From the IMG/VR virus record IMGVR_UViG_3300030098_002423, positions 16,120-38,456 of that record: a stretch of DNA of 22,337 bases, one strand, 5' to 3'. Positions 6,201-15,961 of this stretch are shown in pieces; within the stretch, counting starts at the first letter, position 1; the number at the start of each line of letters is the position of its first letter. The position numbers and the translations under genes are program-made. The DNA is from a virus. The notes beneath the pieces are model-generated. The model did not search any database. It saw nothing but the letters and a program-made list of their open reading frames with translations, and was not told where the DNA came from.

Positions 6201-6430
6201 CACACAGCGCCCCATGCTTCGCTTTTTGAAATATTGTATGAATTATCAAATGCAGGCGCTTCTATAACGGCTATATCATCTGACACGTCGCCAAAACTTG
6301 GGGTAGGCGGCAACATATCTGTAAAGTCCAGTATTTCTTCGCGTGTACGCACGCGATCCGACGCCACTTCTACTGTTTGTGGAGTGTTCGCTGTTACAAG
6401 ACTTCGCAACAAAGGACGTAATGTCATCAT
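3218..6430 (-). CDS. Internal virion protein (T7 gp16-like ejection protein)
   Basis: This is a 1070-residue, mostly helical protein; T7 gp16 is 1318. The N-terminus has MTLRPLLRSLVTANTPQTVE, then YNISKSEAWGAVWDGFTSVY (about 65-84). There is a hydrophobic Ala/Gly-rich helix pair (about 184-216, YITVPEAWVALGAKAGVSAF) and later YSAITMLTGAMAAAPDIARV. The C-terminal DGSKVRDLLPYNRIAHLDWL is an ending I recall from gp16-like proteins of marine podoviruses. I find no catalytic Glu context of the T7 gp16 N-terminal lytic transglycosylase, so this version may lack cell-wall cleavage. By family it spans the envelope during DNA ejection. Two ATG codons lie in tandem (6430 and 6427); AGGAG is 3 bases from the first and 6 from the second, so the second may be the real start. 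Confidence 0.83.
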   Translation of the reverse strand: MMTLRPLLRSLVTANTPQTVEVASDRVRTREEILDFTDMLPPTPSFGDVSDDIAVIEAPAFDNSYNISKSEAWGAVWDGFTSVYMPSEETWDGMVDAFNRTGVNINELAYNYENGINTEADPQFDLEARLEAMGMLALREYYEGAWNAPRVVNEEQFEKRTQYLINAEQKRMRMAKAPEASLFGQIAGYITVPEAWVALGAKAGVSAFKAGTLAAGRTFPQTDQTGDVRTAVGETLAIAGTQYVISGIFSKLQTIMKRNGEEINAEDAAGQHVMSEQIIKEGKAAEAGPEGKASVGSMANEASPPKPESIAEELIQNSVEKTWALGDMLSPISRVLSGVDADAKSLLLNVFEVVPKLRKNTAAGGFQPTEQALETTIKTKYRADIGELHQNIYSGYNNMLKRMNVNPLRRAGGVLGLSQNKIPSILEFRQRVTQVQRSKQKSGIPEIDAAAAQVNSIIKKYTDEIVESGIINDAKLRQIQRLQKTNSTKNAAKIAQLTKEIKQTNDALRAAAEGYIPRMWRKDKIEKNFDQFVERIMKVGGLKKDKAVQIARQLRDYNPFVQSDETVTGVASAFHKRDLDFINDVDFEDFLENDILTVLTTYMRGVAPDLELYKKFGSTDLELPNVNTGDLGPIAKVTANFDEKIKAATSEAQRSKLTKQKAETLEDLRAMRDLLRGTYMMPSNPNSGVSKAIRIAKNYSAITMLTGAMAAAPDIARVVTANGLRKSFGSLFEALTKNDIWKKGLAQNRSIGESYEFWLSSRAAQIADVGDQFGVHNRFESAIGGLASFNFMINGMSFWNDFVKTSSGIIVGTKILDDVTAVALGKATVKQRERLAKSGIGEAEAQSIYKMKDKWEKTDANIIANSRNWDNLIAKDAFENALSKEINTIIVTPGLGERPLFMSNQYLSLLTQFKSFAMASHQRVLVPALQDADRNVLTQIALMTGVGLAIEQIRNAQLGSPDKDWNELMIGAVGRAGWTGWFMDADNLASNATGGSLSIQAMLGASENHGEFSSMQYMLGPSFKAASTAASMAGDVLTGNIDGSKVRDLLPYNRIAHLDWLFSSLEDGTE

Positions 6431-6651
6431 TTACTCCTTTTAGGCTGCTTTTTTCTGTTTGCTTTTTTGCCTATAACAGCCAAATTGCTAGGACGATTAT
6501 CTCTAGGGTTGCCATTTTTGTGGTGTACTTCTTTACCACGACCCGGTTTTTTCATACGGTTAGCTTTATTTCTAGCCGCACGATCTAATTTACCTTTTTT
6601 GGTTCCGTGTGTTGCTTTGTATTCTTTTTTATAATTGCGCGGTTTTTTCAT
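6427..6651 (-). CDS. Small basic HNH-motif protein
   Basis: This is a 74-residue, Lys/Arg-rich protein starting MKKPRNYKKEYKATHGTKKG. Near residues 41-57 it has EVHHKNGNPRDNRPSNL, the 'HH.dGn..nN...NL' signature of the HNH (beta-beta-alpha metal) nuclease core, and it ends AVIGKKANRKKQPKRSK. There is no room for the second, DNA-recognising domain found in homing endonucleases. Similar short proteins are widespread in marine phages, as I recall, between ejection-protein or structural genes. It could be a packaging-linked nuclease or nick-maker, or a DNA-binding relic; activity is unproven. It is joined to both neighbours by ATGA overlaps, so it is a fixed part of the operon and not a recent intron-like insertion. 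Confidence 0.85.
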   Translation of the reverse strand: MKKPRNYKKEYKATHGTKKGKLDRAARNKANRMKKPGRGKEVHHKNGNPRDNRPSNLAVIGKKANRKKQPKRSK

Positions 6652-13974: not shown

Positions 13975-14253
13975 CTAACAATTCCACTTTCTTAGTGCTT
14001 TATTAATTCTGCTATTAGGATCTCTAGCAGTTTTCGCGCTAGTCAATTTACGCTTCATGCCCTTCATGCGTGAGCAAAAAGACTTTCTTCTTTTAGCCGC
14101 TTTACTACCTTTTTTAAGTTTAGACGGCTTTGTTGTTACAGGGGCTTTCAGATTGCCACCTGTTTTTCTATTGTAACTTGCACGACCCCGCGCGTTTAAG
14201 CCACCACTTTTGCTCTTTCCTGCTTTCCGTTGCCATGCAGGAGTTTTAGCCAT
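13975..14253 (-). CDS. Basic DUF6321-like protein
   Basis: This is a 92-residue protein starting MAKTPAWQRKAGKSKSGGLN, then ARGRASYNRKTGGNLKAPVT and KAAKRRKSFCSRMKGMKRKL, ending in ALRKWNC. The order 'TPAWQRK.GK...GGLN..GRASYN..TGGNLKAPVT...SKAAKRRKSFC.RM.GM' and the final 'LRKWNC' are the hallmarks of the DUF6321 family, widespread in phage structural regions and of unknown function. About one third of residues are Lys or Arg, with a single Asp. The two cysteines (in KSFC and the last residue) are conserved in the family as I recall it. The gene directly precedes the 154-base capsid leader and is the last of the small-gene cluster. Confidence 0.88.
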   Translation of the reverse strand: MAKTPAWQRKAGKSKSGGLNARGRASYNRKTGGNLKAPVTTKPSKLKKGSKAAKRRKSFCSRMKGMKRKLTSAKTARDPNSRINKALRKWNC

Positions 14254-14256
14254 TTT

Positions 14257-14424
14257 TTATTTCCCTACTTGTTTTTGTGCCTTTTTATGAGCAGCCGTAA
14301 AACTCATTCCATTTTGCAACATCAATTTTCGCATCATCGCCATATGTTTGCTTGAGTGATGAGCGCTGTGTCGTTTCAGTGTTGCCTTTTGTCTATCTGT
14401 AAGTTGTTTCTTTTTTGTAGCCAT
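14257..14424 (-). CDS. Tiny His/Lys-rich helical protein, KRHS.HHS.KHM family
   Basis: The minus strand reads MATKKKQLTDRQKATLKRHS, then AHHSSKHMAMMRKLMLQNGM and SFTAAHKKAQKQVGK: 55 residues ending with TAA at 14259. The 'LT.RQK.TLKRHS.HHS.KHM..M..LM..G.SFT.AHK.A...VGK' pattern is one I recognise from many marine phages near the capsid gene. Five histidines, four of them clustered, could bind a metal, but there is no cysteine. It is helical, with Met-rich stretches. It overlaps the previous stop by one base and lies 3 bases before the following gene. No function is known to me. Confidence 0.85.
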   Translation of the reverse strand: MATKKKQLTDRQKATLKRHSAHHSSKHMAMMRKLMLQNGMSFTAAHKKAQKQVGK

Positions 14425-14588
14425 TACGCTCTCTTTTTACGTTTTTTCGCTGTTTTAGCAGATTGCACAAATGCTTTTTTAGTAGGAGCGCCTTTTGTTC
14501 CGGGCTTTCTCATTTTTTCACCACTGCCAGCTTTAATTCTTTTTCGTTTTGCATGAATGTTTGCATAAAGTCCGGGTCGTTTTGCCAT
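14424..14588 (-). CDS. Tiny basic protein, RPGLYANIHAKRKRIKAGSG family
   Basis: The minus strand reads MAKRPGLYANIHAKRKRIKA followed by GSGEKMRKPGTKGAPTKKAF and a Lys/Arg-rich end; it is 54 residues long and stops at TAA 14426-14424. Twenty residues are Lys or Arg and only one is acidic. The 'RPGLYANIHAKRKRIKAGSGEKMRKPG' type sequence is one I recognise as recurring in many marine phages, always annotated hypothetical. The ATG follows directly after the preceding TAA, and the stop overlaps the next ATG (TAATG), so it is part of a coupled string. A nucleic-acid-binding or virion-packaged role would fit the charge, but nothing shows it. Confidence 0.85.
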   Translation of the reverse strand: MAKRPGLYANIHAKRKRIKAGSGEKMRKPGTKGAPTKKAFVQSAKTAKKRKKRA

Positions 14589-14759
14589 TTATCTGTCCCT
14601 GTCTCTAAGATTGTTAACTAAATTAAATAGAGTTTCTACTTTTTTATTTAAATGTTCAACATCAACTTTTGTTTTTATAATCGCGTATACCATACCACCC
14701 AGAATCGCGAAAGCTGCGATAGCCGTATTCAGCAAGTCAAGAGCGTCTATTCCTTCCAT
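14589..14759 (-). CDS. One-helix membrane protein with coiled-coil tail; holin candidate
   Basis: I start at MEGIDALDLLNT (56 residues), whose ATG overlaps the previous TAA by one base; the longer frame adds 18 residues that lie inside the preceding gene. Residues about 9-28 form one transmembrane helix (LNTAIAAFAILGGMVYAIIK). The rest is charged and heptad-like (VDVEHLNKKVETLFNLVNNL), ending RDRDR. A short N-terminal segment, one membrane helix and a charged cytoplasmic tail resemble the small holins of T7-like phages (gp17.5 has one transmembrane helix and 67 residues). There is no sequence match I can claim, so holin is an inference from topology, size and the adjacent exported protein. 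Its stop TAA abuts the next ATG. Confidence 0.75.
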   Translation of the reverse strand: MEGIDALDLLNTAIAAFAILGGMVYAIIKTKVDVEHLNKKVETLFNLVNNLRDRDR

Positions 14760-15094
14760 TATGCCCCCGGTTTTTGTAGAATTTCTCCATGATCCCCTCC
14801 ATCTGGCAAACAACTATGTCCTGATGGCGTGTGTACTACGGCTGACCATTTAAGAGTTTTTTTATTAACCCAAATTTCTGTTATATGGCCCCTTGCAGAT
14901 AAACCACGCCAAATGCGTTCTTCCCCTAAATTTTTTAATTGATCGATAGTTTGTTGCGTTGGCAAACACGGCAAATAACTATTCATTTGTGTTTCCATAG
15001 CATCATCTAAATCACTAGTTGCCTGAGAGTCACGGAACGTAAAGAACAATATAATTATTGCCAATACAAGAACCGTGACTTCAGACCACCTCAT
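14759..15094 (-). CDS. Membrane-anchored or exported protein with two cysteines
   Basis: This is a 111-residue protein. The N-terminus has MRWSEV followed by a hydrophobic stretch (VTVLVLAIIILFFTF, residues about 6-20), consistent with a signal anchor with the rest facing the periplasm. Beyond it are SYLPCLPTQQTIDQLKNLGE, then a basic beta-rich part with WVNKKTLKWSAVV and a second cysteine in HSCLPDGGDHGE; the two cysteines could form a disulfide in the periplasm. The TAATG join with the next gene, a small membrane protein, suggests they act together, perhaps in lysis or on the host envelope. I do not recognise a spanin pattern (no lipobox, no long coiled coil), so the role is open. Confidence 0.78.
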   Translation of the reverse strand: MRWSEVTVLVLAIIILFFTFRDSQATSDLDDAMETQMNSYLPCLPTQQTIDQLKNLGEERIWRGLSARGHITEIWVNKKTLKWSAVVHTPSGHSCLPDGGDHGEILQKPGA

Positions 15095-15202
15095 TTACTT
15101 AACCATTCTTTTAGCAGGTTTTTTACGTTTCTTTTTGAGCGACATCTTTGATGTTGGGCCGGGGTAAGGCTTAACTTTTCCCCCTTTTTTAGAATAAGGC
15201 AT
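15095..15202 (-). CDS. Tiny Lys-rich protein (35 residues)
   Basis: Reading the minus strand gives MPYSKKGGKVKPYPGPTSKM followed by a Lys/Arg-rich end, KKKRKKPAKRMVK, and TAA at 15097. It is 35 residues long, with 14 Lys or Arg and no acidic residue. A strong GGAGGA site stands about 7 bases before the ATG, and the stop TAA is directly followed by the ATG of the next gene. These two signals argue for a real gene despite its size. It is one of a cluster of tiny basic proteins here and may bind nucleic acid or an acidic virion surface, but no function is known to me. Confidence 0.7.
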   Translation of the reverse strand: MPYSKKGGKVKPYPGPTSKMSLKKKRKKPAKRMVK

Positions 15203-15220: not shown

Positions 15221-15961
15221 TCAGCCATTTTGTAAACGTTCAAATCCTTTTGTAACACGATCTATTAGTTGTTGATCACGCACACCTGCAGCACCCCAGT
15301 ATTTTTCTGTATTCATAAGTGCTTGCAGTTCTTCTAACGATTCTGCCACTGGCGTAGATTGTTGCCCATTAACATTATTTGCTGATGTTTGTGCCAGACT
15401 CATCATCTCTTCTATTGCTACCACGCCCTCTGCGGTAGTTGCTAACATATTAAGTGCATTTTTAGTGTCTTCTGACAGTTTCGCGTCAGCCCATGCGTTT
15501 ATAGCATCTATTCTAGTTTGACCGTCTTCACCAAGTTTTGCTAGTTCTTGATCGACATTTGGACCATTTGCTTGCATGGCTTCCACATAAGACTTGATCC
15601 CTGCTTGGAATCCGTCGTTATCCATACCCATTCCATGCGCTTGCTCACGCCAAAATGACAAAAGCGGGTCTCCTTCTTGGAACTCAACACCCTCCAACTC
15701 AGGGAGCGTATAATCCGACGCATTTTCTGGCCTGTTAGCAAGACTTTCAGCTTTAACTTCAGCACGAAGATCATCCATCTTAGAGTGAAATTTTTGCTCC
15801 AACTGAGTATATGACTCGCCAAATGTTTGAAGCCTAGCCTCTCCTTTGTCTGCATCCCAAAATTTTTCTGGTACATACTCAGGTCTACTAGCTATCGACT
15901 GTTCTTGTGTCTCCACTGACTCTGTTGTTGGCTCTGGTGAAGATGTTTGTGACTCGCTCAT
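15221..15961 (-). CDS. Capsid assembly scaffolding protein (T7 gp9-like)
   Basis: This is a 246-residue acidic protein with a disordered N-terminus (MSESQTSSPEPTTESVETQE) and a YVPEKFWDADKGEARLQTFG segment (about residues 29-48). The latter is the typical start of T7-type capsid assembly proteins ('vPeKFwd...G.......l..sY..LE'). It continues with LEQKFHSKMDDLRAEV and helical segments, ending in a helix with basic residues (LIDRVTKGFERLQNG) that could bind the shell. By family it guides major capsid protein into a procapsid and is removed during DNA entry. It lies between portal and capsid, as in T7. It starts inside the preceding gene (74-base overlap) with AGGAACAA before the ATG. Downstream is an AGCGGAGGAA site for the next small gene. 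Confidence 0.9.
   Translation of the reverse strand: MSESQTSSPEPTTESVETQEQSIASRPEYVPEKFWDADKGEARLQTFGESYTQLEQKFHSKMDDLRAEVKAESLANRPENASDYTLPELEGVEFQEGDPLLSFWREQAHGMGMDNDGFQAGIKSYVEAMQANGPNVDQELAKLGEDGQTRIDAINAWADAKLSEDTKNALNMLATTAEGVVAIEEMMSLAQTSANNVNGQQSTPVAESLEELQALMNTEKYWGAAGVRDQQLIDRVTKGFERLQNG

Follow-up and report, generated by a model that had tools for sequence, protein, structure and literature searches.

The closest described counterparts of the genes considered here are the internal head proteins of bacteriophage T4, IPI, IPII and IPIII, together with Alt. These are small, basic and accessory, and their occurrence is patchy between relatives. According to a review on the assembly of the T4 head (PMC9026906), residues 4 and 7 of the T4 capsid-targeting (CTS) peptide serve in targeting and processing depends on residues 8 and 10; cleavage by gp21 follows L/I-x-E. 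PMC3012670 describes one T4 internal protein that shields incoming DNA from a restriction enzyme.

Three families of small phage proteins are also relevant. DUF6321 (PF19846; phrog_4689, phrog_727 and phrog_3477), phrog_16028 and phrog_31838 are uncharacterised, with no function given in the Pfam and PHROG libraries, and a search of the open-access literature for the name DUF6321 returned no paper. The cyanomyovirus cluster T4-GC 119 (S-SM1_115, P-SSM4_160 and P-HM2_112) has DUF6321 at or near the C-terminus of a larger, multi-module protein, which in S-SM1 and P-SSM4 includes several other basic modules. DUF5872 (PF19197) and the basic modules GPGTYG, YPSAYAN and FKARH..YW turn up repeatedly as neighbours or fusion partners of these families.

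The window, the whole stretch of 22,337 nucleotides that was analysed, belongs to a record of 38,456 bases from a marine T7-like podovirus. Among isolates, Pelagibacter phage EXVC031P Hodr comes closest, with a portal protein 49% identical. An earlier note, made from the sequence alone, described a cluster of four tiny and extremely basic proteins beside the capsid gene, interleaved with two membrane proteins and tied by TAATG or near-abutting joins. The coordinates and composition (25-40% Lys/Arg, at most one acidic residue) are all confirmed, the interleaving and joins read from the sequence as described, and the cluster sits between the scaffold and major capsid protein (MCP) genes, both assigned from Pfam matches.

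15221..15961, minus strand: T7-type scaffold or capsid assembly protein (PF05396, 1e-7); acidic, K/R 8%, D/E 18%
15095..15202, minus strand: basic protein, 35 aa; 40% K+R, no acidic residue; most near relatives have a 35-aa gene
14759..15094, minus strand: membrane-anchored protein, 111 aa; phrog_25396, function uncharacterised; by eye, a distant counterpart seems to be kept in the related locus L021
14589..14759, minus strand: membrane protein, 56 aa, with a C-terminal coiled-coil-like stretch; homologue kept in L021
14424..14588, minus strand: basic protein of the 'NIHA' family, 54 aa, with the motif GLYANIHAKRKR; phrog_16028; 37% K+R, one acidic residue
14257..14424, minus strand: basic three-helix protein, 55 aa; phrog_31838; 25% K+R, one acidic residue
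13975..14253, minus strand: basic protein, 92 aa; DUF6321 (PF19846) / phrog_4689; 33% K+R, one acidic residue
12999..13820, minus strand: MCP (PF19821, 1.1e-58)
6427..6651, minus strand: fifth basic small protein, 74 aa, HNH_3-like (PF13392, 1.3e-9); 38% K/R

The 35-aa gene abuts the 111-aa gene, stop to start, as the 56-aa gene does the 54-aa gene; TAATG overlaps join the 111-aa to the 56-aa gene and the 54-aa to the 55-aa gene, and a 3-base gap separates the 55-aa from the 92-aa gene. Only one other gene in the 38.4-kb genome is equally basic, that at 6427-6651, which the earlier note did not include. Four of the five thus lie within six consecutive genes (p about 0.01 by permutation). The neighbours of the fifth are two very large genes, one of 921 aa and one of 1070 aa that is internal-virion-protein-like; the match of the fifth to HNH_3 scores 37.9 bits, over the curated cutoff of 24.8, and covers part of the domain only. 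The two small membrane proteins (14589-15094, minus strand) in the scaffold-MCP interval are, from their sequences, possibly lysis-related.

Three of the four proteins belong to the families introduced above. The 92-aa protein matches DUF6321 with E 1.1e-21 and 77.7 bits (curated cutoff 28.5) over positions 1-72 of 72, the 54-aa protein matches phrog_16028 with E 5.6e-26 and 91.6 bits over positions 3-49 of 50, and the 55-aa protein matches phrog_31838 with E 3.4e-7 and 31.3 bits over positions 2-51 of 51. The 35-aa protein has no match among the Pfam and PHROG profiles. Of 50,697 phage records, 517 contain DUF6321, most of them from cyanophages, and 90 contain phrog_16028; the 55-aa protein has no direct match in the phage collection at E 0.01, and a divergent phrog_31838 member can be read in Hodr (MVKDLTKKQMNTLMKHKKHHSKKHM...). 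Against the relatives listed, dN/dS is 0.04-0.12 for DUF6321 and 0.02-0.16 for phrog_16028 (0 against locus L018). MCP values against L014, L017, L018 and L019 are left out because the equal-length slices behind them had not been aligned. The DUF6321 and phrog_16028 genes are therefore real, as purifying selection acts on them (dN/dS mostly 0.02-0.16), and the cluster, with three open reading frames in known families and low dN/dS in two, is more than a product of chance.

The predicted model of the 55-aa protein has three helices (pLDDT 88) and that of DUF6321 is mostly helical (pLDDT 83, pTM 0.58); neither finds a match in the PDB at E 0.001 or better. Some phrog_16028 genes of 49-52 aa carry the label 'ribonucleotide reductase A subunit' (positions 5001-5150 of L171, from S-B28, and 6001-6159 of L170, from CRP-810). 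We reject the label, apparently a propagated annotation error, because the CRP-810 gene translates to the small basic protein of this family.

In T4-like marine phages DUF6321 forms part of longer proteins, and two further families, phrog_11180 and phrog_28131, contain both the motif of the 54-aa protein and DUF6321. Proteins of about 140 aa combine a short leader with both domains, as in locus L466, MIMRDYKELKELCE/AKRGLYANIHAKRKR...LTTE/AAWTKKAGK, where a slash marks a junction. In five distinct DUF6321 proteins a CTS-like peptide of 10 residues immediately precedes the domain (MLTFQEFITE/ATPAW, MITLKEFIVE/VAAW, MLKFKDFILE/VAAW, MLSFSEFIVE/AAPAW and MRSFGQYIKE/VAAW); one capsid-targeting propeptide junction reads in full MLTFQEFITE/ATPAWQRK. 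A strict form of the pattern (F/Y4, F/Y7, I/L/V/M8, E10) occurs in 8 of 89 long DUF6321 forms and in 24 of 4940 other open reading frames, 19 of these 24 from the same phage loci, giving a p value of 5e-8 that is indicative only since related sequences overstate independence. A recognisable CTS is absent from 82 of the long DUF6321 proteins examined, the majority. Of 92 distinct fused proteins, 61 have a [LIVFM]-x-E site 2-6 residues ahead of the first conserved Trp of DUF6321, compared to 10.8% expected from the same proteins. We caution that the CTS and site tests are not fully blind, as the patterns were picked after some of the sequences had been read. Adjoining the fused DUF6321 genes in many T4-like loci (L413-L486 and L335; for example L413, 3576-3890) is a further CTS-like family, MKSFxQFLSESxNIxGDFNGTL....

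Some of the fused relatives are reported in virions. S-SCSM1_29, which has DUF6321 at its C-terminus, carries the annotation of a virion protein in the record of its phage, and the paper on that phage reports virion proteins by mass spectrometry; the support applies to the whole protein and is not placed to particular residues. The virion table of S-CREM2 (PMC10665884) lists the DUF6321 protein gp137 with 4 unique peptides, a detection likewise at the level of the whole protein, and gp160 with 7. By eye, gp160 contains modules like the ones that other phages fuse to DUF6321. The same table includes the cytidylyltransferase gp154, and its start, MKNFSSFLTE..., represents an independent CTS-like start on a virion protein. 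S-SZBM1_192, a leader followed by DUF6321, is absent from the 30-protein virion list of its phage. For podoviruses, the literature passages retrieved held no virion mass spectrometry showing the stand-alone small proteins; those on the P-SCSP1u cryo-EM structure describe a capsid shell of MCP only, and those of the P-SSP7 paper that concern proteomics give no virion proteome.

Since relatives of two of the window proteins are pieces of larger proteins that resemble T4 internal head proteins, carriage in the virion with the DNA is suggested. We consider it somewhat more probable than not that the cluster encodes packaged, DNA-associated basic peptides that are co-ejected with the genome, where location in the podovirus virion, contact with DNA, co-ejection and benefit are what we infer. 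The cluster would then be a cassette of accessory internal head proteins. With their genes in the structural array the proteins are probably made late; they would get into the procapsid along with either the scaffold or the DNA as it comes in, remain on the packaged DNA through contacts of Lys and Arg with phosphate and pass into the host together with the genome. Once there, their role may be to protect the DNA or to act on the cell itself.

The window proteins share with the T4 internal proteins a small size, a basic composition (25-40% K/R) and, judging by their absence from L021, dispensability. Their fused relatives share the CTS-like peptide of 10 residues, in which positions 4 and 7 are aromatic, position 8 is hydrophobic and position 10 is Glu, as well as L/I-x-E-type sites and, in some cases, presence in virions. 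The window proteins differ in that they have neither a CTS nor an L/I-x-E site and start at what corresponds to the mature N-terminus (M-AKRPG and M-AKTPAW), which leaves their route into the head unexplained. The likeness we draw is one of signatures and composition rather than of sequence homology, and no gene here was identified as a prohead protease. The T4-GC 119 proteins share DUF6321 at or near the C-terminus with the 92-aa protein and differ as large multi-module proteins from the tiny genes here; DUF5872 and the modules listed with it are absent from the window cluster. Comparison of the stand-alone gene starts, M-AKRPGLYANIH and M-AKTPAWQRK, with the presumed post-cleavage starts, E/AKRGLYANIH and E/AKSPAWQRK, makes the podovirus genes look 'pre-cut' because the two sets resemble each other, and suggests that they encode pre-cut internal head proteins. 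T4-like marine phages would thus make longer precursors, some with a capsid-targeting propeptide and prohead-protease-type sites, and podoviruses may have a separate tiny gene for each mature piece.

The proteins might instead act in the infected cell rather than the virion, as late basic factors that bind RNA or ribosomes or take over the host. Their composition suits nucleic-acid binding in general, patchy presence in the clade of the window fits an accessory function and podovirus virion mass spectrometry lends a virion location no support. We nevertheless regard such a role as unlikely, given the CTS-like leaders and protease-type sites of the T4-like relatives and the two DUF6321 proteins, from S-SCSM1 and S-CREM2, reported in virions.

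The patchiness was followed in near relatives, defined by an MCP that shares at least 82% identity with that of the window. All four basic genes are read only in L007, where the DUF6321, phrog_16028 and 55-aa genes are identical to those of the window; among the near relatives the 55-aa gene is likewise read at this locus alone. L012 and L013 have the 35-aa gene alone of the four, and L020 and L021 have none. In L021, a 36.5-kb record with an MCP 83% identical, the scaffold-MCP interval is intact, with small membrane proteins and no basic gene; neither DUF6321 nor phrog_16028 occurs anywhere in this record, the ends of which may be incomplete. The basic genes are thus not required for assembly in the L021 lineage and, being patchy in this clade, are accessory. 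L018 has 111-aa and 54-aa proteins identical to those of the window but an MCP that is only 82% identical, a pattern consistent with exchange of the block by recombination.

The earlier note had proposed that the shared charge reflects a common job, such as neutralising packaged DNA. A shared, virion-linked role is favoured by the co-occurrence of the families, the fusion of those of the 54-aa and 92-aa proteins, the CTS and protease signatures and the presence of fused relatives in virions. Neutralisation as the main job is not supported: by our estimate a few hundred copies at about +20 to +30 would offset roughly a tenth of the approximately 77,000 phosphates of a 38-kb genome, and this small offset, with the absence of the genes from a near relative that has an intact scaffold-MCP interval, makes bulk neutralisation unlikely in that role. 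Because one T4 internal protein protects DNA, the peptides could reasonably serve to deliver a specific activity instead.

Also suggested was that the proteins bind an acidic scaffold. As assembly helpers they would act on the scaffold or the packaging machinery while the procapsid forms and would not be kept in the mature head. The adjacent scaffold is indeed acidic, and the genes are flanked by scaffold and MCP genes both in the window and in HTVC168P, and by terminase and portal genes in MEP301. The intact L021 interval shows that such help is not required there and fused relatives are reported in mature virions, so that we judge this explanation quite improbable and retain that of internal head proteins.

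How far the set travels together was assessed on metagenomic loci, the best 80 per query rather than a random sample, with neighbours labelled from locally built profiles and the PHROG annotation of cluster representatives. Of the best 80 loci for phrog_16028, 57 have DUF6321 within 1.5 kb of that family, as do 39 of the best 80 for phrog_31838. Recognised head or packaging genes occur within 4 kb in 52 of the best 80 phrog_16028 loci and 35 of the best 80 for DUF6321, and an internal-virion-protein gene does so in 35 of the best 80 for phrog_31838. A lysis gene lies within 4 kb in 12 of the best 80 DUF6321 loci, and 36 of these 80 have no recognised neighbour. The DUF6321 and phrog_16028 pair is found between scaffold and MCP in HTVC168P, uvMED S28-C3, S-RIP2 and S-B28, just after the MCP in P-SCSP1u and, in MEP301, just before the portal in the terminase-portal interval. 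Upstream of the portal gene, Hodr has a run of DUF6321, a 39-aa basic gene, the divergent phrog_31838-like gene and a DUF5872-like gene, the last two assigned by eye. Some homologue clusters, in HTVC033P and HTVC034P, are beside lysis genes. The families do co-occur in marine phages, and the capsid link is real and frequent without being strict. Other homologues are found after the MCP, in the terminase-portal interval, or next to genes for internal virion proteins or for lysis, and those near lysis genes (HTVC033P, HTVC034P and the 12 of 80 DUF6321 loci) rule out a universal link.

That the proteins are cationic, membrane-active peptides aiding lysis with the interleaved membrane proteins is very unlikely, for although two membrane proteins share the interval and genes for an amidase, peptidase or lysozyme border some of the homologue clusters, L021 keeps the membrane proteins without the basic genes, many relatives have basic genes in head or packaging blocks, the conserved DUF6321 motif contains Gly, Pro and Cys and is not a plain amphipathic helix, and fused virion forms are reported.

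Reading the cluster as internal head proteins leads to a wider proposal that we offer tentatively. Marine phages of unrelated assembly types may have in common an exchangeable kit of small, basic, capsid-carried domains, capsid-targeted and protease-cut in T4-like phages and encoded as already-cut tiny genes in T7-like podoviruses, and this common cargo would reach Synechococcus, Prochlorococcus, Pelagibacter and Roseobacter along with the DNA. If so, DUF6321 and its neighbours would have a job as T4-style head cargo, families of 'hypothetical' small genes would gain a testable role, the clustering of tiny basic genes near head genes would be explained, and there would be a route by which one cargo serves phages whether or not they have a prohead protease.

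Three further observations concern individual loci. HTVC033P (L003, 4907-6252) has seven tiny basic genes in a row, DUF6321 and phrog_16028 among them, beside an amidase gene. A 170-aa gene of S-RIP2 (L169, 5992-6504) joins the phrog_16028 motif to a signal-peptide-like segment and an outer-membrane-protein-like C-terminus, either a fusion or a missed break in the frame. Finally, an HNH-like small protein similar in look to that at 6427-6651 recurs near phrog_31838 genes in other loci.
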